NCBI RefSeq assembly: GCF_900119185.1
Contig: NZ_FPJE01000017.1
Coordinates: 1-64,000, forward strand
Length of the DNA: 64,000 bases
Direction: 5' to 3'
Source of the DNA: Sinomicrobium oceani
Lineage (GTDB): Bacteria > Bacteroidota > Bacteroidia > Flavobacteriales > Flavobacteriaceae
Below are positions 4,820-40,929 of this stretch, one piece after another. The notes beneath the pieces are model-generated. The model was not told the origin of the DNA, did not search any database, and worked only from the letters and a program-made list of their open reading frames with translations. Within the stretch, counting starts at the first letter, position 1, and each line of letters begins with the position of its first letter. A program made the position numbers and the translations under genes.

Positions 4820-7195
4820 TTATCGTTTTGTAAAGCGCTTCCACCAAGGTTGCTTTGTCTCCTGCCCGTAACCATAGCCATAACCGTAACCATAGCCTTT
4901 TTTGGAATCTGTATCGTTAACGAGTATAGACATGTTTGGCAGACGTCTTTCCTTATAAAGATTTTCCGGAATAACAAGCAAACGCTTATCGAGATATCCC
5001 GCACGGCAGACATACACGAATACATCGGCATACTTACTGATAAGCAACGTATCGGTAACCAGACTTACCGGGGCCGTATCCACCACGATATAATCGTAAA
5101 GATCTTCCAGTTCCGCAAACAGACTACCAACCTTATCATTCATCAGCAACTCCGCCGGGTTAGGCGGTACAGCTCCCGAAGCCAGCACATCCAGGTTTTT
5201 ATGCTCCTGGTCACTGAACTTAAAGATCAGGTCTTTCGGATCTGCTCCTCCGTTAGTTAGATAATTGGTAATCCCCCTGCCGTGCGGCAAATCGAGATAC
5301 TCTGCCAGTTTCGGGTTCCGGATATCCATACCTATCAATAATACTTTTTTCCCCGACAACGCCAAAGTTCCGGCCAGGTTAATAGACACAAAGGTTTTTC
5401 CCTCCCCGGATAGCGTAGAGGTTACAAATATCTTTTTAGCCTTGTCCCTGTCAGCATTAGCCAGCATAAAATCCAGGTTGGTCCGTAGGATACGGAAAGC
5501 TTCTGCGGCGCTGGTCCGGCTTCCCATGGAAATCACCTCCTCATTAGAATGGGATTTCGGGATATCTCCTAAGAAGGGTACGGAAAGCTTTCCTTCGATA
5601 TCCTTTCTGCCCTGTACTTTAGTATCCAACAAGTCCTTTAGGTATATAACTCCAAATGGGATAAGCAAACCTAAAACAAAAGATCCCAACAGCACTATTG
5701 CCTTTTTAGGTGATACCGGGATATCCGATCCGTAAGCACTATCAATAATTTTGGAATTGGGCGCCGTAACTTCCAGGGATATAGCGGTTTCCTCCTTCTT
5801 CTGTAACAGATACAGATATAGAGTCTCCTTAATTTGCTGCTGCCGTTGTATCCCCCTGAACTTCCGTTCCTGCCCGGGGACGTTGGATATTTTAGAGCTC
5901 AACAGCTTTTCCTGCTGTTTTAGCTCATTTAGTGCGATACGCTGTGAACTTTTAACATTATTCAATGTCTGTTTTATCGTCTGCCGCTGTGCTGAAATTT
6001 GTCCGTCCAGGTTTACAATCACCGGGTTGTTTTCCGTCGACCCCCGCATCAGGCGGTTACGTTCCTGCACCAGTTTGTTGTAGTCCATAATCATGGGACC
6101 AACACTATTATCTTCCATACTTACATTGGCAGGTATCAGCACACTGTTGTCTTCTATATCCGCCAGATATTCTATCAGAAAGTTTGTGAGCTGCAAGCGT
6201 GTCTCTGCTTCTACAATACGCTTGGCATAATCACTGGCATTATCCAGTACGATTCCTGCTTCTGCTGCTATATCGGTCAACTGATTAGATTCTTTAAAAC
6301 TCTCTGCACTTTGTTCTACTTCTCCAAGCTCAGACTCTATCAGTGCCAACCGCTTTTCGATAAACCGTGCCGTGTTTTCAGAGATCAAATTCTTATCCGC
6401 AACTACATCTATGTTATACTGCTCAATCAGCGTGTTCAATACATCCTCGGCCTTTTGTCTCACTGCACTGTTTAAGCTCAACTTTATGACGCTCGTATTC
6501 TTATCTACCGGTGCTACCTGTACTTTCTCCTGGTAAGCCAGAGTCACTTTTGCCAAAGGTTTAACCTGAACAAGGACCTCTCTGCTATTAAGCTCCTCCA
6601 GATTCTCAAACCTTGGCAATACTGTTATCTTACCATCCTGAAAATTCACTTTTTCCCCAAAACCATAATCACCGATATCATCACCACCTTGATTATAAAT
6701 CCGGAAACCGGTTTTAGAATTTATTTTTACCGTAAAACTGGTATCCGCTTTATGCAGCACGGAATCAGGTAAAGAAAAGTTCACAGAAACAGGAGTACTC
6801 TTATAAGCCTCAGAAGTACGAATGCTCCCTTTTGTATAATACACCACATTCAAACCCAGTTTTTTCACCACATTTTCCATCAGGGTGCGGGAACGCAGCA
6901 CCTCCATTTCATTATCTATGCTATTGGTCATGTTGCCAAACAAACCAATATCCTGGAAAGCCGAAAGCTCCGAATTCATCATACCACCTTTTTTATCATC
7001 CTTGATCATAATGGTGGCCGACACACTATACTGGGGCGTGGCATAACGCAAATAAACAAATGCCAGGGCCACACATAGTACTACACTAATCACAAACCAC
7101 TTCCAGTGTACCAGGTACGCATCCAGTTGATCCCTGAGATTAATTTCTTCATCGCCCGCCGGGCGTAACGGAGGTATTTGTTGCTCTGAATGCAT
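4820..7195 (-). CDS. Wzc-type chain-length regulator / BY-kinase
   Basis: Inner-membrane polysaccharide co-polymerase of 791 residues with a cytoplasmic bacterial tyrosine kinase. Membrane helices lie near residues 33-51 and 498-519 with a long coiled-coil-rich periplasmic part between them (Wzz domain, then GNVR region). The kinase shows Walker A SGEGKT (596-601), Walker A' LLIGMDIRNPK (619-629) and Walker B YIVVDTAP (702-709). The C-terminal tyrosine cluster is an alternating Gly-Tyr run with five Tyr at 768-776, the usual autophosphorylation site. It lies 15 bp downstream of wza and is surely co-transcribed with it. No Wzb-type phosphatase gene is present in the window. Confidence 0.93.
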   Translation of the reverse strand: MHSEQQIPPLRPAGDEEINLRDQLDAYLVHWKWFVISVVLCVALAFVYLRYATPQYSVSATIMIKDDKKGGMMNSELSAFQDIGLFGNMTNSIDNEMEVLRSRTLMENVVKKLGLNVVYYTKGSIRTSEAYKSTPVSVNFSLPDSVLHKADTSFTVKINSKTGFRIYNQGGDDIGDYGFGEKVNFQDGKITVLPRFENLEELNSREVLVQVKPLAKVTLAYQEKVQVAPVDKNTSVIKLSLNSAVRQKAEDVLNTLIEQYNIDVVADKNLISENTARFIEKRLALIESELGEVEQSAESFKESNQLTDIAAEAGIVLDNASDYAKRIVEAETRLQLTNFLIEYLADIEDNSVLIPANVSMEDNSVGPMIMDYNKLVQERNRLMRGSTENNPVIVNLDGQISAQRQTIKQTLNNVKSSQRIALNELKQQEKLLSSKISNVPGQERKFRGIQRQQQIKETLYLYLLQKKEETAISLEVTAPNSKIIDSAYGSDIPVSPKKAIVLLGSFVLGLLIPFGVIYLKDLLDTKVQGRKDIEGKLSVPFLGDIPKSHSNEEVISMGSRTSAAEAFRILRTNLDFMLANADRDKAKKIFVTSTLSGEGKTFVSINLAGTLALSGKKVLLIGMDIRNPKLAEYLDLPHGRGITNYLTNGGADPKDLIFKFSDQEHKNLDVLASGAVPPNPAELLMNDKVGSLFAELEDLYDYIVVDTAPVSLVTDTLLISKYADVFVYVCRAGYLDKRLLVIPENLYKERRLPNMSILVNDTDSKKGYGYGYGYGYGQETKQPWWKRFTKR

Positions 7196-7210: not shown

Positions 7211-8011
7211 TTATCGGGTTAAAACAGAAATTAAAGCAATAATAACGGAGGCTATGGATATTACAACGGTGGCGTTGCGGTTATAGGTAGAAGCCTGTAC
7301 CTGGGCCTTGTTGGGTTCTACATAAATCACATCGTTTTGCTGAAGGTAATAATAAGGAGATTCCAGAATATCCTTTTTGGTTATATCTACCCGGGTGTAG
7401 GTTTTTTCGCCATTTTTATCCCGAATGATCAGGATATTATCGCGTTTACCATATACCGTCAGGTCGCCGGCAAGTCCTATAGCCTCCATAATGGTAATAC
7501 GTTCATTAGGTATGGTATAAGCCCCGGGCCTCACCACTTCTCCCAGTACCGTCACCCGGTAGTTCATAATCCGTATATTCACCACCGGGTTCTTCACATA
7601 TTGAGAGATTTCCTTACGCAATAAACTCACCGCTTCACTACGGGTTAATCCACCTAACTGTATTGTCCCTATTACGGGAAACTCTACATTTCCGTGACTA
7701 TCCAGTAAATAGGTTTGTAACTGCGGCGTTCCGCTTGCACGTTGTCCGGTATCCATATATGCCACTACCGGTAGATTGAACGGCATCACGGTTTCCATAT
7801 TTAATGCCGATACCGTAATTGTCAACAAATCATCAGGCTGTAGTACCGGATCATAGATCACACGGCTTGCCAGCTTATCGATGTCTTCAATATCCTGGAA
7901 ATACACGATGTCCTTACGCGAAGCACATGACACCGTAAGCAACACCAAAACAAAACATATTAAAAACCGGGGATAGATATAAGGACAAGACATTAAGTGT
8001 TTTACTTTCAT
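7211..8011 (-). CDS. Wza-like outer-membrane polysaccharide export lipoprotein
   Basis: Outer-membrane export channel subunit of 266 residues, partner of the Wzc homologue encoded next. A signal peptide ends in the lipobox LTVSC with Cys29 as the lipidated residue. A Poly_export domain (about 48-135, including LQPDDLLTITVSALN) is followed by an SLBB-type region with VTVLGEVVRPGAYTIP at about 153-168 and a C-terminal hydrophobic helix (about 243-264). The protein is shorter than E. coli Wza, as is usual in Bacteroidota. The start at 8011 gives a longish signal region; the internal Met7 is an alternative. Confidence 0.9.
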   Translation of the reverse strand: MKVKHLMSCPYIYPRFLICFVLVLLTVSCASRKDIVYFQDIEDIDKLASRVIYDPVLQPDDLLTITVSALNMETVMPFNLPVVAYMDTGQRASGTPQLQTYLLDSHGNVEFPVIGTIQLGGLTRSEAVSLLRKEISQYVKNPVVNIRIMNYRVTVLGEVVRPGAYTIPNERITIMEAIGLAGDLTVYGKRDNILIIRDKNGEKTYTRVDITKKDILESPYYYLQQNDVIYVEPNKAQVQASTYNRNATVVISIASVIIALISVLTR

Positions 8012-8178: not shown

Positions 8179-10236
8179 TCAACCCGAAAACCCTACCTCC
8201 GAGTCCTTAGATTCAAATAACGTTTTACTCTCTGCTTCTCCGGGGGTAGTATTTGAGGTCTGGACATCCGATTGATGATCCAGAGCTTCGAATAAGGAAT
8301 TCATGCTTTTATACTCCGGAACAAGTTCTTTCATAAGTTTTACGGTCTGATCATTCCTGTATTCGACAGCCACATTATAAATAGCCTGAATAGCGGTATG
8401 GATACAGTTATAATCCTCAGCAGTTTCCGTCGCAATCATGATCTTTTCATGATGTGTGGGTAAAGTTTTCGCTTTGTCGCTAAGCAATTCTTCATAAAGC
8501 TTTTCACCGGGTCTTAGCCCTGTCACTTTTATTTCAATATCGGATTGGGGAATAAAACCGGCCAGGCGTATCATTTTCGTGGCAAGGTCCATAATCTTTA
8601 CGGCTTCCCCCATATCAAAGATAAAGATCTCACCGCCTTTCCCCATAGCCCCGGCCTCTAAGACCAGTCTGCAGGCTTCCGGTATCGTCATAAAGTACCT
8701 GATGATATCCGGATGGGTAATAGTTACCGGGCCACCTTTGGCAATCTGCTCCTTAAACAGGGGCACTACCGAACCATTAGATCCCAACACATTACCGAAA
8801 CGCGTGGTAATAAACCGTGTAGTTTTCTTTTTTTTCTCTTTATTGGAAAAGTACAGGGATTGTACATACATCTCCGCGATACGCTTGGAGGCCCCCATAA
8901 CATTACTGGGATTAACCGCTTTGTCCGTAGAGACCATCACAAATTTATCCGTTTTATACTTAATGGCCAGGTCAGCCATATTTTTGGTCCCCATGATGTT
9001 TACAAAAACAGCCTCCGAAGGATTTTCCTCCATAAGCGGCACATGCTTATAGGCGGCCGCATGGTAGACCATCTGGGGAGCAAAAGCTTCAAAAACACGG
9101 TTCATCCGTTCATAATTACGCACATCGGCTATTACCGTCTCGTACTGCACCTTCCCGGACAGGTTATCCAGTTCCAACCGCAACTGATGCAGGGGAGTTT
9201 CGGCCTGGTCTACGATAATAAGTAATTCCGGATTGTATTTCAGCACCTGCCGTACGATCTCACTCCCTATGGAACCGGCAGCCCCCGTAACCAGCACCCT
9301 TTTTCCTTTCAGTTCTTTGGAGATCCCTTTATTATCCAGGACTATGGGTTTTCGCTCCAGCAGATCTTCAATCTGTATATTCTTGATCTGCCTTGAAAAA
9401 TCCTGTTCATTTTCCCAATCGGATATCAGTGGAGCCGTGAACACTTTATACCCGCTTTCCAGGCAATCGTCTACCAATTCTATCTTTTCCGCCTTGGTCA
9501 GGTGTTTGTCCGCAAGGATTACCCCCTGCGCACCGTGCGCCCTTAGGAGTACGGATATCCGTTTGTTTTTGCTGAGTATAGGCAGGTCCAGGATACGTTT
9601 GGTAGTATTGTGATTGCTCTTATCCACAAACCCTAATATTTTAAACCGGACCGGCTGTTCCGTGCGAATGGCATTGGCCACCGATATAGCATTGGAATCC
9701 GCCCCGAAGATAAGCACCTTTGTCTTTTCCTCTTTTCTTGTCTCCCCGAAAAAAGCATGAAATACCTGCTTTACGACTACCCGGAACAGGAACAGGAAAG
9801 CAAAAGAAATGATAAAATACATGAATAACCCGGGGACCAGGAAAAGCTTTTCCCCGGTGATAAAATAACTGGTATAACTAATCCCCGCCAGGGTAACAAA
9901 AGAAGCAAATGTAGAAAACAGTAATTTTAACCCGTCTATATATGAAGAGTAACGTATCAGACCGGCATAGGTTCGGAACAGGAGAAAATACACGATATTC
10001 ACTCCTACCACCATAAGCAATTCTTCCAGGCGGGTAAGGCGGGTATAAAAACTAAGCGTGAGCCCCTGGAGCAACACATAAGTAACTATAGCTGAAAATA
10101 CCAGTATGGAGATGTCGATTCCCAGAATGATCCACCTCGGCAGGTAGCCTATGTTCTTTAAGTCCAGTTTTCTCTTCCCGGGTTGAAACACCAGTTTCAT
10201 CCCTCGTCTCAACTTATCCCAACTTATTTTTTTCAT
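8179..10236 (-). CDS. Membrane nucleotide-sugar 4,6-dehydratase (PglF/WbpM/CapD family)
   Basis: A 685-residue protein with four membrane helices (about residues 33-152), a first Rossmann-like domain (KVLIFGADSNA, 173-183) and a second catalytic SDR domain starting at VTGAAGSIGSE (316-326). The catalytic TDK triad is in STDKAVNP (436-443), with MGASKR at 447-452. Family members make UDP-2-acetamido-4-keto-2,4,6-trideoxyhexose from UDP-GlcNAc. With the aminotransferase and phosphoglycosyltransferase encoded just upstream it forms a PglF-PglE-PglC-like trio for a 4-amino sugar on undecaprenyl phosphate. The C-terminal tail of about 25 residues is acidic and unlike the rest. The substrate is inferred from the family. 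Confidence 0.9.
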   Translation of the reverse strand: MKKISWDKLRRGMKLVFQPGKRKLDLKNIGYLPRWIILGIDISILVFSAIVTYVLLQGLTLSFYTRLTRLEELLMVVGVNIVYFLLFRTYAGLIRYSSYIDGLKLLFSTFASFVTLAGISYTSYFITGEKLFLVPGLFMYFIISFAFLFLFRVVVKQVFHAFFGETRKEEKTKVLIFGADSNAISVANAIRTEQPVRFKILGFVDKSNHNTTKRILDLPILSKNKRISVLLRAHGAQGVILADKHLTKAEKIELVDDCLESGYKVFTAPLISDWENEQDFSRQIKNIQIEDLLERKPIVLDNKGISKELKGKRVLVTGAAGSIGSEIVRQVLKYNPELLIIVDQAETPLHQLRLELDNLSGKVQYETVIADVRNYERMNRVFEAFAPQMVYHAAAYKHVPLMEENPSEAVFVNIMGTKNMADLAIKYKTDKFVMVSTDKAVNPSNVMGASKRIAEMYVQSLYFSNKEKKKKTTRFITTRFGNVLGSNGSVVPLFKEQIAKGGPVTITHPDIIRYFMTIPEACRLVLEAGAMGKGGEIFIFDMGEAVKIMDLATKMIRLAGFIPQSDIEIKVTGLRPGEKLYEELLSDKAKTLPTHHEKIMIATETAEDYNCIHTAIQAIYNVAVEYRNDQTVKLMKELVPEYKSMNSLFEALDHQSDVQTSNTTPGEAESKTLFESKDSEVGFSG

Positions 10237-10974: not shown

Positions 10975-12105
10975 CTATATACTTAGAAATTTTGTAATTG
11001 CCGAACGAATACGTTCCCTGTCCGTATCTGTAAGATTAGAGCCGGAAGGCAGACATAGGCCCCTGTCAAAGATATCTTCAGCAACCCGACCTCCGTAATA
11101 AGGTACGTCCTTAAAAACCGGCTGTAGGTGCATAGGTTTCCATACCGGCCGGCTTTCTATATTATCTTCGTCCAGGGCTAAACGCAAGGCTTCACGTTGT
11201 TCAAAGCTTTCTGTCAGGATCGCCGTCAGCCAGTGGTTGCAGAAGTAATCTGTACCAGGTGCTCTCAAAAGTGTAATTTCCTTAACACCCGAGAAGATCT
11301 CCGTATAAAAAGCATGCATCCCCCGGCGTTGTGCTACCCGCTCTTCCAGCACTTCCATTTGTCCCCGGCCTATCCCGGCACAAATATTGCTCATCCTGTA
11401 GTTATACCCAATATGGCTGTGTTGATAATGCGGCGCCTGATCCCTGGCCTGTGTAGCCAGAAACACCGCTTTTTTCTTTAAATCTTCATCCGGGCACACC
11501 AAAGCACCGCCACCCGAGGTTGTAATGATCTTATTTCCATTAAATGACAAAATTGCCATTGGCGCGAAAGTACCACAGTTTTGCCCCTTGTAATGACTCC
11601 CCAGGGCTTCCGCCGCATCTTCTATAACAGGTATGTCATATTTGCCTGCAACTGCATGTATCTCTTCCACTTTATAAGGCATCCCGTAAAGATGTACCGC
11701 AATAACAGCCTTGGGTTTCATCCCGAGAGCTGTCCTCTCTTTTATGGCATCTTCCAAAGCACCGGGACATATATTCCATGTATCCGGTTCACTATCCACA
11801 AAAACAGGAGTAGCTCCCTGGTATACGATAGGGTTGGCCGAGGCAGAAAAAGTCAGGCTCTGGCATATTACCTCATCACCGGCTTTAACCCCCAAAAGGA
11901 TCAGGGCCAAATGCAAAGCCGCAGTACCGGTACTTACCGCCGCTATCTTTTTTTCTTCTCCGAGAAAGCCTTCCAGGTCTGCTTCCAAACCATTGACATT
12001 AGGCCCCAATGGGGCAACCCAATTATGGTCAAATGCTTCTTTTATATATTTTTGCTCATTCTCTCCCATATGAGGAGAAGAAAGCCATATTTTATTTTTT
12101 GTCAT
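10975..12105 (-). CDS. DegT/DnrJ/EryC1/StrS sugar aminotransferase
   Basis: PLP-dependent enzyme of 376 residues that places an amino group on a keto nucleotide sugar. Visible are the substrate/PLP region STGTAALHLAL (58-68), the PLP-contact EDAAEALGS (162-170) and the Schiff-base lysine in SFNGNKIITTSGGG (Lys192). It resembles PglE, the UDP-4-keto-6-deoxy-GlcNAc 4-aminotransferase. It lies 44 bp downstream of the initiating transferase gene in the same direction, so it probably ends the long ugd-led operon; its expected substrate producer is the dehydratase at 8179-10236. Confidence 0.9.
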   Translation of the reverse strand: MTKNKIWLSSPHMGENEQKYIKEAFDHNWVAPLGPNVNGLEADLEGFLGEEKKIAAVSTGTAALHLALILLGVKAGDEVICQSLTFSASANPIVYQGATPVFVDSEPDTWNICPGALEDAIKERTALGMKPKAVIAVHLYGMPYKVEEIHAVAGKYDIPVIEDAAEALGSHYKGQNCGTFAPMAILSFNGNKIITTSGGGALVCPDEDLKKKAVFLATQARDQAPHYQHSHIGYNYRMSNICAGIGRGQMEVLEERVAQRRGMHAFYTEIFSGVKEITLLRAPGTDYFCNHWLTAILTESFEQREALRLALDEDNIESRPVWKPMHLQPVFKDVPYYGGRVAEDIFDRGLCLPSGSNLTDTDRERIRSAITKFLSI

Positions 12106-12149: not shown

Positions 12150-12743
12150 TCAGCATACGGTTTTAAAAATATAACCGATATCCCTGAACAAACTATAATC
12201 TTTAATATATTCCAGGTTTATTTTCACCTTCTCAGGCCAAATGACTTCACGGTTATACTTTTCCGGATCTTGTTGAGAGGCCAAAATTTCTTCCTCATTT
12301 TTAAACTTAATACTCGCCGGACCTGTTATGCCCGGCCGTATGCTAAGTAATAACCGATCTTCGCCTTCAAGCTTATCTGCATAACCGGGAACGTCCGGTC
12401 GAGGCCCCACAAAACTCATATTTCCCATAAGAACATTCCAAAGTTGAGGAAGTTCATCAATTTTGGTTTTTCTCCAAAAACGTCCGATTTTGGATATACG
12501 GGGATCTTTATCCGTTGTAACAGAAGTATTTACTCCTGATACAGGGCGCATACTTCTTATCTTTATCACCTTAAATAACCGACCATCCCTTCCAACCCGT
12601 TCCTGCTTAAAAAAACCACTTAGCCCCGTATCTATATAAGCCAATAAAGCAGCCACAACTATAAGCCACCACAAAAACAACAACCCGAAAAATGAAACCA
12701 CTACATCAAAAGCTCTTTTCTGAAATCGCTGGTATCCCGTCAT
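12150..12743 (-). CDS. Initiating phosphoglycosyltransferase (PglC/WcaJ catalytic family)
   Basis: Transfers the first sugar-1-phosphate onto undecaprenyl phosphate at the cytoplasmic face of the inner membrane. The 197-residue protein is the minimal monotopic form: a re-entrant helix (about 12-36), then FFKQERVGRDGRLFKVIKIR (44-63), the catalytic Asp-Glu pair in KIDELPQL (Asp96/Glu97), and the family signature SFVGPRPDVPGY. Start and stop overlap with the sulfotransferase gene as TAATG. The likely donor is the 4-amino sugar made by the neighbouring enzymes, but UDP-FucNAc is possible too. Confidence 0.92.
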   Translation of the reverse strand: MTGYQRFQKRAFDVVVSFFGLLFLWWLIVVAALLAYIDTGLSGFFKQERVGRDGRLFKVIKIRSMRPVSGVNTSVTTDKDPRISKIGRFWRKTKIDELPQLWNVLMGNMSFVGPRPDVPGYADKLEGEDRLLLSIRPGITGPASIKFKNEEEILASQQDPEKYNREVIWPEKVKINLEYIKDYSLFRDIGYIFKTVC

Positions 12744-13609
12744 TATTTTTCTATTTTATGGTATATATCAACCATTATGGGTTCTACAATCCTGTTCAAT
12801 TTTTCAAGATCATCAGGGGTTATATATTTTTTATAATTCCCAATACTCCGGGTAGATACCTTGTTGACTGAACCTTTAATTTCCTTCTCGCTTGCTTCGA
12901 GCCCGATAAAATCCATTACCTTTCCCATCTCTTCCACAGGATTGCCTACAAAAGTTTCATAATTCATCATATGAACCCTGTGAGAATCAATTTGCAATAA
13001 GTCCTCATATGCAGCTTCTACACATGTTGCCCATTGTTTACCACACACCTCTATTAGAGAATCCTTTTGGAGGTCTTCCTTCATTCCAGGATAAATCGGC
13101 CCCCAAAAGGCCAGTCGTTTTTCACTGGAAAAAAGTTTCTTAATCCGATTGATAAAATAACGAAAGCCATAATAAGGTATATCACTCACAGGAACATATT
13201 TCACCTTTTTCCATATATATTTAAGCTCTAAAGACGCCGTCCATCGCTGTTTTGCCGAACTGGCCACATCCCTGCCATCCCGTATCAGAAAAATATATTT
13301 TGCATTGGGGAAAATAGCCTCTATAAAAGGCACTTTTAAACTACTGGCACAGGTTTTTTCCACCACATGTTCTGCTTTTGATTTTCTTTCAAAACTCTCA
13401 AATGCCCCTTTTATATACTTTCTCACCCCCGGCCGGGCATCCCCGGCCGTAAAACGGTCCGTATTTTTGGCAATATTTCCATGACGCCAGATATAATTAA
13501 TCTCGTCACAGGGCCAGGTTTCAAACCCTTGTATAGAACAGATACTGTCCCTTAAAATATTGGTTCCGGAACGGCCGGCGCCTATGATAATTATAGGAGG
13601 ATTTTTCAT
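12743..13609 (-). CDS. PAPS-dependent sulfotransferase family protein
   Basis: A 288-residue cytosolic enzyme expected to move sulfate from PAPS to a hydroxyl or amino group. The 5'-phosphosulfate loop is GAGRSGT (residues 10-16) after the first strand IIIIG, and the 3'-phosphate motif is IRDGRDVASSAKQRW (109-123) with Arg110 and Ser117/118. Genes on both sides overlap by 1-4 bp, so it is an integral part of the polysaccharide operon. The PAPS it needs can come from the cysDNC operon at 37.3-40.1 kb. The acceptor sugar is unknown. Confidence 0.85.
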   Translation of the reverse strand: MKNPPIIIIGAGRSGTNILRDSICSIQGFETWPCDEINYIWRHGNIAKNTDRFTAGDARPGVRKYIKGAFESFERKSKAEHVVEKTCASSLKVPFIEAIFPNAKYIFLIRDGRDVASSAKQRWTASLELKYIWKKVKYVPVSDIPYYGFRYFINRIKKLFSSEKRLAFWGPIYPGMKEDLQKDSLIEVCGKQWATCVEAAYEDLLQIDSHRVHMMNYETFVGNPVEEMGKVMDFIGLEASEKEIKGSVNKVSTRSIGNYKKYITPDDLEKLNRIVEPIMVDIYHKIEK

Positions 13610-14829
13610 TGTTTTAATATTTCAAAAAACGCTTTTTCCAATTTTTCAGTACTTGCAACTATTGAAAGATTATTATCATAATATTCAATACCTTTTTTAC
13701 CCATATTTTTTCTCTCATCCCTACTCAAATGATACAGTTCATCTAATTTTTGTTTTAAATCATCTGCATCCTGAGGCTCAAATAAAAAACCCGCGCCCGA
13801 TGTTTTAATAATTTCCGCCGCATTTCCCTTTAACCCCATAAGAATAGGTTTCCCGGTTCTTAAATAGGATAATATTTTAGAAGGGATTGTTATTTCAAAC
13901 AAATCGGTGTTTTTTAAATGAACCAACAAAGCATCTGCCGAATTCAAATACTTAGTCACTTCTCCTCCGTCTACCCGCTCAATAAATTGAACGTTATCCA
14001 GTTCCATCTGTTTTCGCTTATTTTTTAGCCGCGCTTCATCAGCACCTCCACCCAGCAGTGTAAATTGAATATTACTATTACCTTCTTGTTTTAATTGTTG
14101 TGCCACTTCCAAAACAATATCAAGTGCCTGAACAACTCCAAGATTTCCGGCGTACAGAACGTGGAATTTATCACCAGGAAAATAGTTTTCCTTAAGTTCT
14201 TCATCCAACCCTGCTGTACTGTACTTATCCCTGCTCCAGTTTGGAACAAAAGAAATTTTAGATTCCGGCACACCTTTTTCAATCAATCGTTGCTTAAACC
14301 CAGGTGTTGCGACCGTTATTTTGGAAGCTCTTCTATAGTTAAAGTCGCACCAGGCATTAATCAATTTTAAAAGTCTCTTGTTTTTCATCATCCCTGATAC
14401 AGCTACGGTTTCGGGCCATAAATCATTAATGTCGTAAACAAAGGGAATTCCTCTGAACCATTTAAAAACCGTTGCAGGGATCCCTACGGGAATGGCGCCT
14501 TGGTATACAAAAGCTACATCAGGTCTTTTCACTAAAAAAGGCCCAAATAAAGACGCTGAAAAAGCATAAGAAAGGTAATGAAGCATTCGTTTCATTCCAT
14601 TGTCACTTTGGTTGGGATATATAGGAACACGTATTACCTCTATACCTTCCATAACCTCCCGTTTCCAAAGCTTCTGTTTATAGCCTTCATAAATTTCCCC
14701 TAATGGATATGAAGGGAAACCGGTAAGTACCTGTACTTCATGTCCTCTTTTCTTTAGTTCAAGGGCAAAGTCCAAACTTTTCGCTGTCGGCTCCGGGTTA
14801 AATAATTGCTTTATTAATAATATTCTCAT
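13606..14829 (-). CDS. Glycosyltransferase family 4 (WbuB-like)
   Basis: A 407-residue GT-B glycosyltransferase. The N-terminal half begins RILLIKQLFNPEPTAKS and contains FVYDINDLWPETV; the C-terminal donor-binding half has LYAGNLGVVQALD (about 240-252) and the EX7E-like stretch ending in PSKILSYLRTGKPILMG. This is the WbuB/colanic-acid type that often uses UDP-FucNAc or a related amino sugar, which suits the adjoining FucNAc genes. It overlaps the sulfotransferase gene by 4 bp (ATGA) and starts 7 bp after the 2-epimerase stop. Confidence 0.9.
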   Translation of the reverse strand: MRILLIKQLFNPEPTAKSLDFALELKKRGHEVQVLTGFPSYPLGEIYEGYKQKLWKREVMEGIEVIRVPIYPNQSDNGMKRMLHYLSYAFSASLFGPFLVKRPDVAFVYQGAIPVGIPATVFKWFRGIPFVYDINDLWPETVAVSGMMKNKRLLKLINAWCDFNYRRASKITVATPGFKQRLIEKGVPESKISFVPNWSRDKYSTAGLDEELKENYFPGDKFHVLYAGNLGVVQALDIVLEVAQQLKQEGNSNIQFTLLGGGADEARLKNKRKQMELDNVQFIERVDGGEVTKYLNSADALLVHLKNTDLFEITIPSKILSYLRTGKPILMGLKGNAAEIIKTSGAGFLFEPQDADDLKQKLDELYHLSRDERKNMGKKGIEYYDNNLSIVASTEKLEKAFFEILKQ

Positions 14830-14836
14830 ACTTTAT

Positions 14837-15970
14837 TTATTCACTCCAGACCACACGTTTCACATAATCCGTATAGCTCAATATGATACGTACTACTTTT
14901 TCCGAAACATTGGGCATTGAATAATCTGTTACCTGGCGGTAATTTCTATCCGTTCCTATTTGCTGTTGTTGGACCTGCACCAATCCCTGAAGTACTCTTT
15001 CAGGCTTTAGGCCCACCATCATCACCGAAGCCTCTTCCATTGCTTCCGGGCGCTCATGTGCCTGACGAATGTTCAAAGCACGAAAATTTAAGATCGAAGA
15101 CTCTTCGGAGATCGTTCCCGAATCTGACAATACCGCATAGGAACGCATCTGTAATGCATTGTAATCGTGAAATCCGAGCGGTTTGAGAAACTGGATTTCA
15201 GGGCGTGTTTCAATTTTCATTTTCTCTATCATATTTCTCGTGCGCGGATGTGTGGAAACAATTACCGGATATTCATATTTTCCTGCAATAGTATTCAACG
15301 ATTCTATCAGACCCCTGAAATTCTTTTCAGCATTAATATTCTCTTCCCTATGAGACGATACCACGAAAAACTTACCTTCTTCCAGTCCAAGTCTTCCCAA
15401 AACTTCAGAAGATTCGATTTGCGGCAAATAATGGTTCAAAACCTCAAACATAGGAGAGCCTGTTTTTATTATGCGATCAGCGGACAATCCTTCTCTTAAG
15501 AGGTATTCACGAGCAATATCCGAATAGGTTAAGTTGATATCGGCCGTATGATCAACAATCTTACGATTGGTCTCTTCCGGAACCCGCTGATCAAAACACC
15601 TGTTTCCGGCTTCCATGTGAAAAACAGGAATATGACGCTTCTTAGCCGGAATAGCACATAAGCACGAGTTGGTATCGCCCAGGACCAAAAAGGCATCGGG
15701 TTGCAATTCCTCAAGTAGAGGGTCTATCTTTATCAAAATCTTCCCAACTGTTTCCGTAGCATTTTTCCCCGCAGCCTCCAAAAAGTAATCCGGCTTTCTT
15801 ATCCCCAGATCTTCAAAAAAAACTTGATTCAATTCATAATCATAGTTCTGCCCGGTATGTACCAGGATATGCTCTACAGCTTCAGAATGGTCCAGTGCGG
15901 CTAAAACCCGGGACAAACGTATAATTTCGGGCCGGGTGCCCACCACCGTCATTACTTTTAGTTTTTTCAT
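14837..15970 (-). CDS. UDP-N-acetylhexosamine 2-epimerase (FnlC/WbjD/CapG-like)
   Basis: Non-hydrolysing 2-epimerase of 377 residues. It has the N-terminal VVGTRPEIIRLSRVL, the HTGQNYDYELNQVFF motif, HMEAGNRCFDQRVPEE (about 119-134) and DSGTISEESS near residue 282. Position next to FnlB- and FnlA-like genes points to the last step of UDP-L-FucNAc synthesis (UDP-L-PneNAc to UDP-L-FucNAc) rather than ManNAc formation, since no UDP-ManNAc dehydrogenase is present. It is 91 bp downstream of the FnlB homologue. Confidence 0.9.
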   Translation of the reverse strand: MKKLKVMTVVGTRPEIIRLSRVLAALDHSEAVEHILVHTGQNYDYELNQVFFEDLGIRKPDYFLEAAGKNATETVGKILIKIDPLLEELQPDAFLVLGDTNSCLCAIPAKKRHIPVFHMEAGNRCFDQRVPEETNRKIVDHTADINLTYSDIAREYLLREGLSADRIIKTGSPMFEVLNHYLPQIESSEVLGRLGLEEGKFFVVSSHREENINAEKNFRGLIESLNTIAGKYEYPVIVSTHPRTRNMIEKMKIETRPEIQFLKPLGFHDYNALQMRSYAVLSDSGTISEESSILNFRALNIRQAHERPEAMEEASVMMVGLKPERVLQGLVQVQQQQIGTDRNYRQVTDYSMPNVSEKVVRIILSYTDYVKRVVWSE

Positions 15971-16061: not shown

Positions 16062-17180
16062 TCAAACCTCCTCAAAATAGGTATCCGCATCTTCCGGGTC
16101 ATATGGTTCATTGATCCAGAAATTGGTATAGAGCACCTCATCTCCGATATTTTTTATGTTGTGCGTATACCAGATAGGCATGTCCACATAAGCAGGTTCA
16201 TCTCCGTCCAAATAAAAATCATGAACCTCATCTGTTCCTATCTTTCGCAATTGAATCAGGGCCTTCCCCCTAATCACGGCAAACCGTTCAACCTTCCTGG
16301 TATGATAATGGTTCCCCCTGGTAATCCCGGGAACAGTGGTTGAAAAAGATACCTGTCCGCCAATTCCCAGACGTATAATCTCCACAAAAGATCCCCTGTC
16401 ATCCGTATGCTGCGTAAACTTAACAGGGAAATAGTTCTTAGGGACAATATAAGATCGAAAAGTATTAAATAAGTTAAGCTCAAAGGTTGAGTTGAGTTGT
16501 GGGATCTCCCCTTTCTCAAAATACTTCTCTTTATAATCGGTTAGCAGTGAAAGCACTTCTGAAACCTTAACAGAGGCCGTGTGTGGAACCTGATAAGAAA
16601 AATTGTTTTTACGTTTCCGTATTTTCCGGATTATCTCTTCTACCAATTCACCTACATAGATCAGTTTTACACTTCCGTCATTGTCGATCTTCGGAGTTTC
16701 TACATGTGTTAATTGATGACAAAATGTAGCTATAAAAGAATTATAGTAAGGCTGACCAAACGGACCAAAAACGTTGGGAACGATCATTCCCGAAAAAATT
16801 CCAGCTGAACTTTCAGCCCAGTTTATCAAGAACTCTCTTCCTTCCCTTTTGGACTTACCGTAAAGGTTATCTCTTTCCTCCTGAGATGATGAAGAGAACA
16901 GTACATGAGCTTTTGAAGCTGTTCTTTCCAGTGAAGCGACAAGTTGTTTTACCAACCTGATATTGGTTTCATAAATAAAATCCTGGCTTTGATGGCGGTT
17001 CATCGCCGCAAGGTGTACAACAACATCACATTGCTTAACGAATTCGTCTAGCTTTTCTGGGGTTTCGAAATATTCTTTTCTGAATTCAATTCTTTGAAAT
17101 TCTTCGGAACACAGCCCCAATGTATGGTAGAGGTGACTTCCTACAAATCCGTTTTGTCCTGTTATACCTACTTTTATCAT
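16062..17180 (-). CDS. UDP-2-acetamido-2,6-dideoxy-hexulose epimerase/reductase (FnlB/WbjC/CapF-like)
   Basis: Bifunctional enzyme of about 373 residues: an N-terminal SDR domain (VGITGQNGFVGSHL at residues 3-16, SSSSQEERDNLYGKSKREG) and a C-terminal cupin (GNHYHTRKVERFAVIRG). In CapF the cupin performs C3 epimerisation and the SDR domain reduces C4. The frame opens upstream with a TTG at 17198, but ATG 17180 gives the canonical start MIKVGITG and the usual length of about 370. It acts between FnlA and FnlC in UDP-L-FucNAc formation. Confidence 0.9.
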   Translation of the reverse strand: MIKVGITGQNGFVGSHLYHTLGLCSEEFQRIEFRKEYFETPEKLDEFVKQCDVVVHLAAMNRHQSQDFIYETNIRLVKQLVASLERTASKAHVLFSSSSQEERDNLYGKSKREGREFLINWAESSAGIFSGMIVPNVFGPFGQPYYNSFIATFCHQLTHVETPKIDNDGSVKLIYVGELVEEIIRKIRKRKNNFSYQVPHTASVKVSEVLSLLTDYKEKYFEKGEIPQLNSTFELNLFNTFRSYIVPKNYFPVKFTQHTDDRGSFVEIIRLGIGGQVSFSTTVPGITRGNHYHTRKVERFAVIRGKALIQLRKIGTDEVHDFYLDGDEPAYVDMPIWYTHNIKNIGDEVLYTNFWINEPYDPEDADTYFEEV

Positions 17181-17215
17181 AGCAATTATATTTGTCAACT
17201 ATGGTTATGTATCCG

Positions 17216-17635
17216 TTAATCATTAAAATAATCTACATCATAGCGGTATTCATCCTTGACTTCTCCTAAAGCGTGATCCACCATAACCAATAATTTCGAG
17301 TCTTTCTCCAAAGCCTGAATGCTACTGACATATCCAGGAGGAACAGCTAAGATATCCATTCCATTTCCTTTGAGCACAAACATCCGTTGTTGCAGATCTT
17401 TAGAAGGAGATTCCCAGTTGTCGATTCGGATCAACTTTATTTCAAAAGCCCCGTTTATTGAAGAGAACCACCGGCGTTCTATCTTATGACCCTGCCAGGC
17501 CCTGACAAATTCACTATCGACATTTCGAATGATATATATTCTTTTTGCCAGAAGCGCGTTAATATCATTATTAAAATCCAATCTACCTCGTTCGTCTTCA
17601 TAACAACCTCCTTTGATCAATTCAGGCAACTCCAT
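17216..17635 (-). CDS. WxcM/FdtA-like cupin (putative sugar ketoisomerase)
   Basis: A 139-residue single cupin. It opens with the family-like stretch GGCYEDERGRLDFNND, then KRIYIIRNVDSEFVRAWQGHKIERRWF (RGWHAH-like region in FdtA relatives), the strand pair LKGNGMDILAVPPGYVSSIQAL and a C-terminal DVDYFND. FdtA-type proteins isomerise dTDP-4-keto-6-deoxyglucose at C3/C4, but other members only bind sugars. The histidine content of the presumed site is low (one His in WQGHKIERRW). It sits between the FnlA and FnlB genes, so a role on the FucNAc intermediate is possible. I cannot assign its reaction. Confidence 0.75.
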   Translation of the reverse strand: MELPELIKGGCYEDERGRLDFNNDINALLAKRIYIIRNVDSEFVRAWQGHKIERRWFSSINGAFEIKLIRIDNWESPSKDLQQRMFVLKGNGMDILAVPPGYVSSIQALEKDSKLLVMVDHALGEVKDEYRYDVDYFND

Positions 17636-17660: not shown

Positions 17661-18695
17661 TTATTTAGATTCTGTAGATATTTCAGAGTCGAAAGCTTGC
17701 TGTTGAACAATAGGAAGTTTTAACAACAGATGTTTCATTCCTTCCACATCTTGTTGTTCGGTATTATGGGAATTATAATCCTCAATCTTGGAAATGGCCT
17801 GCTCCCCTTCTGAGAAATATTGTGCATAATTCAAATCTCTGTTATCTGCAGGGATACGGTAAAAATCACCCATATCCTCGGCCTTGATCATCTCTTCCCT
17901 TGTGCAGAGCGTTTCGTACAACTTCTCTCCATGCCTTGTCCCTATTACTTTCACAGGGTTCTTGGCATTACATATCTCTTTAAGCGCCTGTGCCAGATTT
18001 CCAATGGTACCCGCAGGGGCTTTATTCACAAACAGATCTCCCGGGTTCCCGTTTTCAAAGGCAAAAAGTACCAATTCCACAGCTTCTTCCAAAGACATTA
18101 AAAACCGGGTCATCTCCGGATCCGTCACTGTTATAGGGTTACCTTCCTCTATCTGTTTTAAGAACAAGGGAATGACCGAACCCCGCGATGCCATTACATT
18201 ACCATACCGGGTTAAACAAACCGTGGTCTTTTTCAGGTTACGAGATGCCGCAACAGCTACCTTTTCCATTAAGGCCTTGGATATGCCCATGGCGTTGATG
18301 GGATACGCGGCTTTGTCCGTACTTAAACAAATCACTTTTTGCACCTTGTTATGGGCTGCAGCATCAATAACGTTTTGTGTACCTAACACATTGGTTCTGG
18401 TGGCTTCCAAAGGAAAAAACTCGCAGGAAGGCACTTGTTTTAAAGCTGCGGCATGAAAAACATAATCTACGTCACGCATGGCCCGTTCTATGCTATCATA
18501 ATTGCGTACATCACCTATATAAAATTTTAATCTAGGATTATTTAATGTATTACGCATATCATCCTGCTTTTTCTCATCCCTGGAAAAAATGCGGATTTCA
18601 CTAAAATGATCAGTATGCAAAAACCGGTTTAGAACCGCATTGCCAAAAGACCCAGTCCCCCCTGTAATTAATAGTATCTTATTTTGAATTTTCAT
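17661..18695 (-). CDS. UDP-GlcNAc 4,6-dehydratase/5-epimerase (FnlA/WbjB/CapE-like)
   Basis: Soluble SDR enzyme of 344 residues, the usual FnlA length, starting the UDP-L-FucNAc pathway. It has the NAD motif TGGTGSFGNAV (residues 10-20), DVRNYDSIERAM, and the catalytic STDKAAYPINAMGISKALMEK region with the TDK triad typical of inverting dehydratases. The frame can be extended to a TTG at 18725; ATG 18695 is preferred because the protein then begins MKIQNKILLITGG like relatives. A 176-bp AT-rich gap separates it from the GH56-like gene upstream in the operon. Confidence 0.92.
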   Translation of the reverse strand: MKIQNKILLITGGTGSFGNAVLNRFLHTDHFSEIRIFSRDEKKQDDMRNTLNNPRLKFYIGDVRNYDSIERAMRDVDYVFHAAALKQVPSCEFFPLEATRTNVLGTQNVIDAAAHNKVQKVICLSTDKAAYPINAMGISKALMEKVAVAASRNLKKTTVCLTRYGNVMASRGSVIPLFLKQIEEGNPITVTDPEMTRFLMSLEEAVELVLFAFENGNPGDLFVNKAPAGTIGNLAQALKEICNAKNPVKVIGTRHGEKLYETLCTREEMIKAEDMGDFYRIPADNRDLNYAQYFSEGEQAISKIEDYNSHNTEQQDVEGMKHLLLKLPIVQQQAFDSEISTESK

Positions 18696-18871
18696 ACACA
18701 ATAAATTGCTTTTTAGCTCATACAAGCTTCAAAAATTTTTAACCCTATATATCAATATTAAATTGTAAATAATTTTTATTGCAAAATTCAAGCTTACAAA
18801 TCGAAAAAGTTAAACCAAATCCATTTACTTCGATAATTGGTTATAACCAATATTTAATTTATCTCTCATCA

Positions 18872-19789
18872 TCAGTTTTTATGTATATACTTTTCAATAG
18901 AACCATAATATTCCTTAAACATATCATATTGATAAGTATCCAAATCCTTTACATTGAAATATTCTCTTTTTGCAACATCAAATCGTTTTCTATTTCTGTA
19001 AGAATAGCTTTCTGAATGCCACCAAAATATTCCTTTAGCCGTTTTTCCACTATACTCTGTACTCGAAATCAAATTAACCACATGTTCAAAAACTTCGACC
19101 GGAATAAATTCATGTCCCGTCTTTTTAGGAGTGCGGTGCCATACAAAAGGATAAACAGGTAAATTATATTTGTCTCCCATCTCTAAGGCTTGTAATAATT
19201 TTTTTCTCAAATACTTATGCCCGCTGATTTTATATCTCAATCCAGTATTATACACATAAAGTGAAGGTGCTATAAAATCCTGTTCCCTGATTATTGGCTC
19301 CAATTTCTTATTTTGTTTTCTAAAATCTGAAATTTTGCCCCAATACGAAATGTAAAGTATATGATAATACCCCCATTTGACATTCGGTCTAAGTTTTTTT
19401 GCTAATCTTATGGCCTTAAGGAATTCATTTATATAGAAATCTAATTTCTCCTGATCGTCTTGATTTTGAAAAACTTTAATAGCCTCCCCCTCCCAATCTA
19501 AAACTGCGAAACCAGTTGCAGTTTCAGAAGGAATTTTTGATTCAATTTGCCTCTTTAACTTAGCTTCATCAACTTTATTATCGGTAACAAAAAAGTTTTG
19601 ATAAAATATGGTATAGGTCGACAACTCATTTTCTTGAACAAATGTTTTTTGTCCTTTTATATCCGGATCTTGTATAAATAAAAGATCTAATTTACTTTGT
19701 CCCCAACTTAAAAAAGAAAAACTTAATAATAAAGCACTAAACCCAATCTTTACAATCTTTATTTTCTTTTTTGTATTTAAGTAACTCAT
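18872..19789 (-). CDS. Secreted GH56 (hyaluronidase)-like protein
   Basis: A 305-residue protein with a signal peptide (hydrophobic core about residues 14-29, likely cut after SFLSWGQ). It resembles the GH56 hyaluronidase fold by eye. FAVLDWEGEAIKVF matches the catalytic strand carrying a DxE pair (Asp-Trp-Glu), LRPNVKWGYYHILY matches the LRPxxxWGYY region, and IAPSLYVYN matches the ALYPSIYL region. A C-terminal FWWHSESY may supply aromatic substrate contacts. It is encoded inside the polysaccharide operon between the acetyltransferase and FnlA genes. It might trim or clear the polymer in the periplasm or at the surface. The family call is from motif memory and is moderate. Confidence 0.62.
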   Translation of the reverse strand: MSYLNTKKKIKIVKIGFSALLLSFSFLSWGQSKLDLLFIQDPDIKGQKTFVQENELSTYTIFYQNFFVTDNKVDEAKLKRQIESKIPSETATGFAVLDWEGEAIKVFQNQDDQEKLDFYINEFLKAIRLAKKLRPNVKWGYYHILYISYWGKISDFRKQNKKLEPIIREQDFIAPSLYVYNTGLRYKISGHKYLRKKLLQALEMGDKYNLPVYPFVWHRTPKKTGHEFIPVEVFEHVVNLISSTEYSGKTAKGIFWWHSESYSYRNRKRFDVAKREYFNVKDLDTYQYDMFKEYYGSIEKYIHKN

Positions 19790-19896: not shown

Positions 19897-20454
19897 TTAG
19901 CATAAGTCCTTGAGTCCAAATGACAATTGTTCGAAATTCTTCTCGAGCATTTCAATATGTACACGCTTATCAGCCTCACTCTGAAATCTATTTTTAATTT
20001 TTTTTGCCGGCACTCCACCGTATATAGCAAAAGGCTCAACATCCTTCGTAACAACCGAACCCAACGCAATAATTGCTCCATCTCCTATAGTAACGCCTGT
20101 CATGATTCTCGAATATGCCCCGATCCACACATCCTTACCTATTATTGTTTCTTTTATGGTTCCTCGTCCCGAAAAAATGACAGGAATTCCTGCCTTATCA
20201 AAAGCATGATCTCCTCCAATAATAGAAACGTTATGTGCTAGCATAGTATAATCACCTATTATTACTTTTGGGTAAATCAAACATCCCTTACCTATGTAGG
20301 AATACACTCCAGCTACCAAATCTGGAGATACTTGAGATTCACCTCCCATATAAAAAGTGGAATGGACATTACTAAGCTTAAATTTTTTTCTATAAAAGAA
20401 CATCTTAGCCGTCCTATAATATTTTCTTACCTTATCTTTTATCATTTTTATCAA
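19897..20454 (-). CDS. Left-handed beta-helix acyltransferase (CatB/WbbJ-like)
   Basis: A 185-residue hexapeptide-repeat protein, probably an acetyl-CoA-dependent O-acetyltransferase acting on the polysaccharide or a precursor. Repeating [LIV]-G-x4 units are clear (GVYSYIGKGCLIYPKVIIGDY, interrupted by the loop with the catalytic-type His in IIGGDHAF, then IGKDVWIGAYSRIMTGVTIGDGAIIALGSVVTKDV), ending in the family tail YGGVPAKKIKNRF. Its start overlaps the upstream glycosyltransferase gene by 23 bp; a second Met at codon 4 is possible. It is not PglD-like in sequence. Confidence 0.85.
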   Translation of the reverse strand: MIKMIKDKVRKYYRTAKMFFYRKKFKLSNVHSTFYMGGESQVSPDLVAGVYSYIGKGCLIYPKVIIGDYTMLAHNVSIIGGDHAFDKAGIPVIFSGRGTIKETIIGKDVWIGAYSRIMTGVTIGDGAIIALGSVVTKDVEPFAIYGGVPAKKIKNRFQSEADKRVHIEMLEKNFEQLSFGLKDLC

Positions 20455-28932: not shown

Positions 28933-29059
28933 TTTTGAACTTATGTGGATATATTGATAATCGTATTCTTCACTCTTTTTGAAAATCTCTATGATCAGAT
29001 TTTTCCTGAACTTTTTTAAGATAATATTCAAAACCCCAAAAGTACCATTATGCTTTGGC

Positions 29060-29257
29060 AAAAGCAATTAAAAAATCACAGTACCTACAACGGGCATTTC
29101 AGGCATAAATTATATTCCGCATTACACAATTTGAAAAACTTCCGTGTTCCTACCCAAAAAGAGCAAATCATAGCGAGAGCCTTAAAGTGACAAAACGCAA
29201 CGCTACAGTACTAAAAAATTACGTATTCTCCTACTTTTACGATAAGATTTAATAAAG
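29060..29257 (-). promoter_or_regulatory. Conserved upstream element 1 (JUMPstart/ops-like candidate) of the ugd-led operon
   Basis: Two blocks here match blocks upstream of the cys operon (40650-40830) in the same order and orientation. Read on the minus strand, the distal block (29194-29257) has TTTATTAAATCTTA, then AATACGT, a T-run, AGTACT and GCGTTGCGT. The proximal block (29060-29117) has ATATAATTTA and CGTTGTAGGTACTG. The GCGTTGCGT tail after AGT(A/G)CT recalls the end of the enterobacterial JUMPstart element (ops GGCGGTAGCGTG). Function as an antitermination site is inferred. Confidence 0.5.
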
Positions 29258-37240: not shown

Positions 37241-37253
37241 ATATTAAAAATAT

Positions 37254-38510: not shown

Positions 38511-38541
38511 TATCTTCTTTCTTTTTAAATCGTTGGTTATA

Positions 38542-39447: not shown

Positions 39448-39456
39448 GATCTTTAC

Positions 39457-40463: not shown

Positions 40464-40649
40464 ATAATCTTCTCTCCTGCAATTAACTTATCTTTTATCC
40501 GATTTCTGTAAATTATTTTTGGGAAACCAATTTTGAATCACTATGGTATAGCTTTTGCCGGCTATATTTACATCCATTACTCCTTATTTAACAGGAATTA
40601 TCGTATAAAATTTATAATCGAATTTTATAAAAATAGTATTCTCTAATTA

Positions 40650-40830: not shown

Positions 40831-40929
40831 TCTGTTGTTTTTTAGTTCTATACATAGAATGTCCATATCACCAAACAGGAATATAAAAGAAGTCCGCTGA
40901 ACGATAACATGGGCTTCTCCCAGATTCGT

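Follow-up and report, generated by a model that had tools for sequence, protein, structure and literature searches.

A sulfotransferase gene and a cys operon in one polysaccharide locus

The stretch of DNA analysed here (the window) comprises positions 1 to 64,000 of contig NZ_FPJE01000017.1 (C55) of Sinomicrobium oceani. It contains a gene for a sulfotransferase predicted to depend on 3'-phosphoadenosine 5'-phosphosulfate (PAPS), together with a cys operon of the order DUF2061-cysC-cysD-cysN-cysQ that lies 23 kb away on the same strand, within one polysaccharide locus. These genes, and the two open reading frames (ORFs) that overlap the sulfotransferase gene, are as follows.

12150-12743, minus strand: small initiating phosphoglycosyltransferase (PGT), 197 amino acids (aa) (Bac_transf, Pfam E 7.6e-54)
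12743-13609, minus strand: PAPS-dependent sulfotransferase, 288 aa (Pfam, motifs, alignment, structure model)
13606-14829, minus strand: GT4-like glycosyltransferase (Pfam Glycos_transf_1 and Glyco_trans_4_4; WcaI subfamily match below cut-off)
36446-37240, minus strand: CysQ, 3'(2'),5'-bisphosphate nucleotidase, predicted to clear 3'-phosphoadenosine 5'-phosphate (PAP) (TIGR01331 above cut-off)
37254-38612, minus strand: CysN, ATP sulfurylase GTPase subunit (TIGR02034 above cut-off, match begins at residue 43)
38542-39447, minus strand: CysD, ATP sulfurylase subunit (TIGR02039 above cut-off)
39457-40050, minus strand: CysC, adenosine 5'-phosphosulfate (APS) kinase (TIGR00455 above cut-off)
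40032-40463, minus strand: DUF2061 membrane protein, first gene of the operon (PF09834 E 2e-46)
40464-40929, minus strand: upstream region of the cys operon (best operator score 3.3, reached by 37% of 500 shuffles; see below)

The sulfotransferase matches the Pfam domains Sulfotransfer_3 (E 4.8e-21) and Sulfotransfer_1 (E 5.6e-14) and carries GAGRSGT at residues 10-16 and IRDGRD at residues 109-114, which bears out the original prediction of a PAPS-type enzyme made from these two motifs. It was also said to overlap polysaccharide genes on both sides, and does so: its 3' end overlaps the start of the PGT gene by 1 base and its start overlaps the end of the glycosyltransferase gene by 4 bases, an arrangement that would fit translational coupling. 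In an alignment of 66 members, comprising the window protein and 65 of the 68 relatives described below (L023 was omitted, L067 runs off its contig and L071 is fragmentary), 37 columns are invariant. These include the PAPS motifs, with G10, A11, R13, G15 and T16 of the 5'-phosphosulfate-binding loop and R110 and S118 of the 3'-phosphate-binding motif shared by all (S14 is kept in 98%), and the motif WxCDEINYIW, from residue 32, is likewise present in 66/66. The structure model (mean predicted local distance difference test score 93.5) has the sulfotransferase fold over its whole chain (Z 20.7 against 5wrj, root-mean-square deviation 3.3, 222 aligned). With both the PAPS-contacting motifs and the fold present, the protein is assigned to the sulfotransferase family, and sulfate transfer from PAPS is its predicted activity. 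A genome-wide search for other sulfotransferases with the Pfam models PF00685 (Sulfotransfer_1) and PF13469 (Sulfotransfer_3) gave none besides this one.

The cys operon stands as first described, an operon of APS kinase, both ATP sulfurylase subunits and CysQ at 36446-40463, each now matched above its NCBIfam cut-off, with the refinement that the true start of CysN may be nearer 38516. It fails as an assimilatory sulfate reduction operon, containing neither cysH nor a sulfite reductase gene; contig C55 has no NIR_SIR match, and CysD is its only match to the PAPS_reduct family. This CysD is also the sole CysD detected in the genome, and no ATP sulfurylase of the Sat type was detected in the genome or in any of the nine genomes tested (our own included). 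DUF2061, a small two-repeat membrane protein, could be a sulfate permease or the partner of one; DUF2061 ORFs are found both beside cysC and beside cysH (e.g. window 40032-40463; L077 ~10978-11160).

The absence of cysH, cysI and cysJ, on which the original prediction had relied, holds for the window and fails for the genome. The assembly (5.02 Mb in 57 contigs, 99.98% complete) contains one CysH of 210 aa on contig C11, with an Rrf2-family regulator and an ORF for DUF2061 as neighbours; contig C15 encodes an NIR_SIR protein of 705 aa that includes a HEPN domain and adjoins a CobA-like methylase. Among NCBIfam models this NIR_SIR protein comes closest to a NirA-family model and a nitrite reductase, without reaching the cut-off of either; its relatives in nine other genomes, 64–72% identical, are located in cysH-cysD-cysN clusters, and it is probably a sulfite rather than a nitrite reductase (SiR). 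The missing reductase is thus a property of the window and not of the organism. A third PAPS_reduct match (C35, 466 aa) was ruled out as CysH because it matches DndC models (E 1.5e-143). This ORF, at C35:18851-19399 and about 3 kb from a contig end, marks a possible DNA phosphorothioation locus.

The explanation that we favour, with a probability of roughly 0.7, is that the locus specifies a sulfated Wzx/Wzy capsule, and that sulfation and a separate cysteine branch part at APS while sharing CysDN. CysD and CysN would make APS, which CysC would phosphorylate to PAPS, the donor for the sulfotransferase, and CysQ would remove the PAP that the sulfotransferase releases. On the separate branch, the CysH of C11 would probably reduce APS directly to sulfite, and the probable sulfite reductase on C15 would convert sulfite to sulfide for cysteine. 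The polymer would be sulfated inside the cell by this one PAPS-dependent enzyme, probably at the first sugar, or the first two, while attached to the lipid carrier.

APS kinase, CysH classes and the proposed branch at APS

We surveyed 149 genomes of the same family from 148 genera, the sole second genome of any genus being G094, from the window's own genus. APS kinase (apsK, here cysC), called above its model cut-off, was found in 69 genomes, CysH in 95 and a sulfotransferase (a PF00685 or PF13469 match) in 58. Sulfotransferase and apsK are both present in 56 genomes and both absent from 78, with two genomes having only the former and 13 only the latter (Fisher p 1e-25). The occurrence of cysH is independent of apsK (both 45, cysH only 50, apsK only 24, neither 30; p 0.86) and of the sulfotransferase (p 0.73). 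Where sulfotransferase and apsK are both present they lie within 30 kb of each other in at least 35/56 genomes, compared to about 2.9 expected at random in genomes of 3.3 Mb. Three sulfotransferase loci in G005 and G136, the genomes with a sulfotransferase and no apsK, gave no cys-gene match. At locus L121, G143 carries an additional divergent apsK (45% identical) that is paired with a cysQ and separated from a sulfotransferase by about 3.5 kb, which suggests that this genome has a second PAPS module.

CysD splits into two groups, one 68–100% identical to the window's protein (type B; 60 genomes, 58 of them at 82–93%) and the other 57–64% identical (62 genomes), with both present in five genomes; partial matches at contig ends in G103 (80%) and G022 (53%) were excluded from both. 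Type-B cysD is accompanied by apsK in 59 of its 60 genomes, the exception being G094. The clusters that contain cysC have the order cysQ-DUF2061-cysC-cysD-cysN or that of the window, include no reductase and often lie amid polysaccharide genes.

The presence of CysH and an NIR_SIR protein in the genome, with CysDN the only ATP sulfurylase found, would also be expected of an ordinary assimilatory PAPS pathway whose genes are scattered over the genome, in which CysDN and CysC would make PAPS, CysH would reduce it, SiR would produce sulfide and the sulfotransferase would merely borrow PAPS. We consider this unlikely, in part because of the distribution of CysH. We divided CysH into class A, at least 59% identical to the window genome's own CysH, and class B, below 59%. 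Class A is found in 71 genomes, 24 with apsK and 47 without; 39 of these 47 are at least 95% complete, and G094 (99%) is among the 47. Class B is found in 24 genomes, of which 21 have apsK and the remaining three are 73%, 87% and 94% complete. Because 47 of the 71 genomes with class A lack apsK, class-A CysH, including that on C11, probably reduces APS: a genome with cysH-cysD-cysN-SiR and no APS kinase could assimilate sulfate only if its CysH takes APS, barring an unknown kinase. Among 15 class-A loci examined, 11 have the order Rrf2-DUF2061-cysH-cysD-cysN, followed in nine by SiR-cobA, and none includes cysC; the CysD of these clusters is about 61% identical to that of the window. In the other four (our own genome, G094, G143 and one G142 locus) cysH has no adjoining cysD or cysN. 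G142 carries both classes of CysH (L113 and L112), one beside Rrf2 and the other beside SiR and cobA.

The two classes also differ in the P-loop, which reads TTNFRPYE in 15/15 aligned class-A proteins versus TT[NS]FG in 6/6 of class B, a difference that counts against an ordinary PAPS pathway. All 21 aligned proteins keep RECG[LI]H, and none has the CC or CxxC ligands of an iron-sulfur cluster; absence of these ligands, seen in 21/21 of both classes, thus cannot separate them. Nor is it proof of PAPS use, since the moss enzyme APR-B, which like class-A CysH lacks the cysteine pairs, is an APS reductase without an iron-sulfur cluster (PMC2275785; this and the other papers cited are represented by the portions of their text available to us). 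APR-B is a plant/algal enzyme, and the available portion of that paper gives no bacterial example of a cluster-less enzyme using APS.

The same-genus genome G094 offers a close comparison, although it amounts to one pair and one event. There a LacI-type neighbour (80% identical to the window's) is followed by cysD (92%) and cysN (83%), and the genome's CysH is 82% identical to our own. No DUF2061, cysC or cysQ match was found in the 18 kb examined at cysD-cysN (no genome-wide cysQ search was made), and genome-wide there is no apsK above cut-off and no sulfotransferase match. A candidate cysC remnant between the LacI gene and cysD was rejected: its best match amounts to 14 identical bases, a figure that 2.5% of 200 shuffles attained and the best of them exceeded. 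Within this pair cysDN is thus retained in both genomes, and cysC and the sulfotransferase are either both there or both missing.

Regulation may follow the same division. A Gibbs sampler, given 20 of the 21 examined cysH loci (all but L113, which encodes the second CysH of G142) and our own SiR, found a 20-bp palindromic site, about NYCTACTAAATCGATAGRNT, upstream of cysH in 20/20 loci, and leave-one-out runs recovered it above 100 shuffles in all 20; a first dyad search had returned A/T-rich repeats only. Scored with a matrix built without the window's genus and against 500 shuffles per region, the site reaches 22.8 at our own cysH (no shuffle as high), 16.6 at our own SiR (0.2%) and 13.3 at the cysD of G094 (0.2%), and was not found upstream of the window's cys operon (3.3). 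In a scan of about 162 kb of our own genome, two sites without known role (14.0 and 14.8) exceed the G094 cysD site (13.8 in the same scan), so that the latter is distinctive only relative to the 0.2 kb of DNA preceding its gene; a site upstream of ugd (11.7) was dropped as lying within the window's own top scores (12.2, 11.7, 10.3). Upstream of 15 other cysC operons (that of G061 without adjoining cysD or cysN) there is no site in 13, a strong one in G142 (19.1) and a weak one in G038 (8.6). Its neighbourhood suggests that the Rrf2 protein binds this candidate operator. The original prediction had set against itself an assimilatory reductase co-regulated with the operon; the reductase exists, but the site that its gene shares with SiR is absent upstream of the operon.

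Several observations weigh against this division of labour and, in part, for an ordinary PAPS pathway. The nearest solved relative of our own CysH is the E. coli PAPS reductase (1sur, E 2.6e-23), NCBIfam models naming PAPS reductase match it below their cut-offs, it lacks the iron-sulfur cysteine pairs, and its assignment to APS draws only on genomic context. Type-B cysD is present in 21/24 genomes with class-B CysH, and so may serve cysteine synthesis there too. A low-scoring match to the operator (9.4, equalled in 3.6% of shuffles) falls within cysC, on the upstream side of cysD. No sulfotransferase was detected in 13 of the 69 genomes with apsK, and two of the 58 with a sulfotransferase lack apsK (90% and 84% complete). 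Were the partial CysD of G103 (98% complete, no apsK) of type B, the count for that type would be 59/61. Finally, the Fisher tests take genomes as independent and ignore kinship.

On balance, the co-occurrence of apsK with the sulfotransferase, the class of CysH found without apsK and the G094 pair lead us to infer that cysC and cysQ belong to sulfation, while CysDN is shared with the cysteine branch. The original claim, that the operon supplies a sulfated polysaccharide and not cysteine synthesis, is supported for the PAPS step, given how apsK tracks the sulfotransferase (and often lies near it) rather than cysH, and given the full Wzx/Wzy locus described below in which the sulfotransferase is encoded. 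It does not extend to the operon as a whole: with CysH and a probable SiR in the genome, a single CysD and no Sat-type enzyme, cysD and cysN must serve cysteine too if sulfate is assimilated, which rules out the strong form in which the operon serves no cysteine synthesis at all. Extended to the whole family, the reading would be that APS kinase is dedicated to sulfation, that a widespread bacterial CysH class with TTNFRPYE and no iron-sulfur cluster reduces APS directly, that a sulfur-regulated cysH-cysD-cysN-SiR cluster makes cysteine while a separate cysQ-DUF2061-cysC-cysD-cysN cluster feeds sulfotransferases, and that a cross-phylum sulfotransferase subfamily sulfates lipid-linked sugars at capsule initiation; we hold this wider version more tentatively, at slightly less than even odds.

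The capsule locus and the candidate acceptor

The window's polysaccharide genes form a Wzx/Wzy-type capsule or exopolysaccharide locus with a complete set of parts: initiating PGT, flippase, polymerase (an EpsG-family protein, presumed to fill the Wzy role), Wza and Wzc. In addition to the genes listed above, it includes the following.

4820-7195, minus strand: Wzc-type chain-length/tyrosine-kinase protein (Wzz, GNVR, AAA_31)
7211-8011, minus strand: Wza-type polysaccharide export protein (Poly_export, SLBB)
8179-10236, minus strand: CapD-type nucleotide-sugar 4,6-dehydratase (Polysacc_synt_2 with CoA_binding_3)
10975-12105, minus strand: LegC/DegT-type sugar aminotransferase (DegT family; TIGR04181 below cut-off)
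14837-15970, minus strand: UDP-N-acetylglucosamine 2-epimerase, FnlC/WecB type (TIGR00236 above cut-off)
16062-17198, minus strand: FnlB-type reductase (Polysacc_synt_C and Epimerase; NF047837 match below cut-off)
17216-17635, minus strand: FdtA/WxcM-like small protein
17661-18725, minus strand: FnlA-type 4,6-dehydratase/5-epimerase (TIGR04130 E 1.1e-166, below its cut-off)
20432-21547, minus strand: glycosyltransferase
21619-22659, minus strand: EpsG-family protein, probable polymerase (PF14897 E 9.2e-45)
22670-23758, minus strand: polysaccharide pyruvyl transferase family
23755-24963, minus strand: glycosyltransferase
24975-25967, minus strand: polysaccharide pyruvyl transferase family
25964-27355, minus strand: Wzx-type flippase (Polysacc_synt)
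27514-29067, minus strand: UDP-sugar dehydrogenase
30407-31444, minus strand: RmlB-like nucleoside diphosphate-sugar 4,6-dehydratase
32815-33672, minus strand: RmlD
33665-34237, minus strand: RmlC
35201-36088, minus strand: RmlA (TIGR01207 above cut-off)

The FnlABC-type set is one that we take to be the pathway to UDP-N-acetyl-L-fucosamine (UDP-L-FucNAc). GC content is 30–34% in the core of the locus (about 18 to 28 kb) compared to 38–51% elsewhere in the window; low GC is common in variable capsule cores. Also inside the locus, the product of 18872-19789 (305 aa) has an N-terminus resembling a signal peptide and matches Pfam Glyco_hydro_56 (hyaluronidase, E 2.8e-11); it is possibly a glycan-cleaving enzyme. 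A SusC/SusD pair at 46011-53409, beside a DUF3472/DUF5077 protein and a GH109-type protein and with a LacI regulator (40930-41988) nearby, forms a small sugar-uptake locus neighbouring the capsule locus, and a 719-aa ORF at 55743-57902 has no Pfam match at E 1e-5.

Among the GTDB genomes scanned, 68 relatives of the sulfotransferase were identified, at 37–55% identity, which span eight phylum-level groups (four of them single-row). The ORF upstream of the sulfotransferase matches glycosyltransferase group 1 in 51/65 relatives (65 ORFs from 67 loci, five of them antisense longest ORFs on the other strand and kept in the denominator). Downstream, the start of a PGT gene falls within 300 bp in 47/66, a count taken from tblastn matches because longest-ORF calling chose antisense ORFs in some loci, and in 42 of these 47 the PGT is 46–65% identical to the window's. 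All of fnlA, fnlB and fnlC were matched in 27/67 loci, and several Bacillota loci have the order PGT-GT4-ST-fnlABC instead (ST, sulfotransferase). Three genomes of the same family keep fnlA-fdtA-fnlB-fnlC-GT4-ST-PGT with a cysC operon 14–21 kb from that sulfotransferase; degT and capD follow the block in two of them and lie nearby on the other strand in the third. Since the sulfotransferase is encoded between the PGT and the GT4-like transferase here and in most relatives, the gene neighbourhood suggests that it sulfates the first lipid-linked sugars.

This placement competes with a further possibility, to which we give a substantial but lesser chance, namely that the enzyme does sulfate the capsule, but acts on completed repeat units or on a different sugar, such as rhamnose. 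The locus has rml genes, and Cobetia provides a published precedent for sulfated rhamnose (PMC11766843). Outside the family, moreover, the glycosyltransferase beside the sulfotransferase is only about 21–30% identical to that of the window, so the acceptor may differ among relatives, and this too counts against our proposal. On the other hand, the conservation of the adjacent PGT and of WxCDEINYIW suggests one shared acceptor near the initiating step, and rmlA, rmlC and rmlD occur together in 2/68 relatives' loci (L027, L065; up to 10 kb from the sulfotransferase was viewed).

That the substrate of the sulfotransferase is not the capsule at all but, for instance, a lipid, a sterol or a secreted small molecule seems to us very improbable. 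The top fold matches of the model are tyrosylprotein sulfotransferases and sulfotransferase domains of biosynthetic enzymes, one Kordia species has cysC and a second cysND at a nonribosomal peptide synthetase cluster (PMC7477175), and in Bacteroides thetaiotaomicron a putative PAPS operon (BT_0411-BT_0416) lies beside a sulfotransferase, as in the window, with BT_0416 acting on cholesterol and, in the available text, no capsule locus described around it (PMC9417993). However, the window gene overlaps PGT and glycosyltransferase genes within a capsule locus, this setting recurs across several phyla, and the fnlA-to-PGT block is kept with the sulfotransferase in the three family genomes; in addition, heparan sulfate N- and 3-O-sulfotransferases (NDST1, 3-OST) share the fold at Z 15–16.

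A further point against our explanation is that only 10/67 relatives have cys genes at a distance of 10 kb or less from the sulfotransferase. APS kinase is above cut-off in 47 of the 50 source genomes searched (of 68), the three misses being metagenome assemblies, but as many bacteria have apsK, little weight can be put on this count. In a tree of 70 sulfotransferases the window protein groups with three from the same family (Shimodaira-Hasegawa-like approximate likelihood ratio 89, not starred), and the partial mixing of phyla shows neither transfer nor its absence.

Comparison with known systems and significance

PAPS genes and sulfotransferases in a polysaccharide cluster are already known, with supporting chemistry, to mark a sulfated polymer (PMC11641403, PMC11766843), and the window locus is of that kind. 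In Vibrio sp. KMM 8419 the capsule cluster likewise has cysC, cysN and cysD (there second copies) with sulfotransferases, the sulfated product was chemically determined, and the authors call the gene combination a hallmark of sulfated polysaccharide loci; it differs in being an ATP-binding cassette (ABC)-transporter capsule of rhamnose and glucose, and the available text describes no FnlABC-sulfotransferase-PGT block (PMC11641403). Cobetia marina KMM 1449 also has cysN/cysC, cysD, cysQ and a sulfotransferase in its capsule cluster, with CysQ named as the PAP-clearing step, but there the capsule is again of the ABC-transporter type, with L-rhamnose 2-sulfate, a sulfate permease gene in place of DUF2061 and a bifunctional cysN-cysC gene (PMC11766843). 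The synechan (xss) system of Synechocystis resembles the window in combining exopolysaccharide machinery with sulfotransferases, and a sulfotransferase mutant (xssA) loses the polymer; it is cyanobacterial, and PAPS genes are not described in the cluster in the portion available (PMC13125312). Pontiella sulfatireligans, whose exopolymers are mainly N-sulfated, has a sulfotransferase among GT4/GT2 genes and a sugar transaminase, in another gene order and, in the accessible part of the paper, without a described PAPS operon (PMC7356697). A combined-term literature search found no paper on sulfated FucNAc polysaccharides of marine bacteria.

What would be new is that an APS-level reductive route and a PAPS-level sulfation route branch from a common ATP sulfurylase, and that the cassette recurs beside the initiation genes; the literature searched, which most subscription journals lie outside, yielded no description of either. 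The glycosyltransferase-sulfotransferase-PGT block, recurring over eight phyla, offers a testable acceptor for a group of enzymes, the bacterial polysaccharide sulfotransferases, whose acceptors are relatively little known according to the authors of the Vibrio study (PMC11641403).

The branch point bears on Kordia, where a cysND-cysH-sir cluster without cysC, the same assimilatory type as that found here, was taken by its authors as suggesting an incomplete pathway, and where one species also has a separate cysC-cysND cluster (PMC7477175). Our reading differs in that such a cluster would be complete via APS reduction, and if it is true the Kordia-type cluster printed as suggesting incompleteness becomes a complete pathway. 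If true, cysC in this family would likewise be a marker of sulfation and not of sulfate assimilation, and cysC, cysH and cysDN would have to be interpreted differently there.

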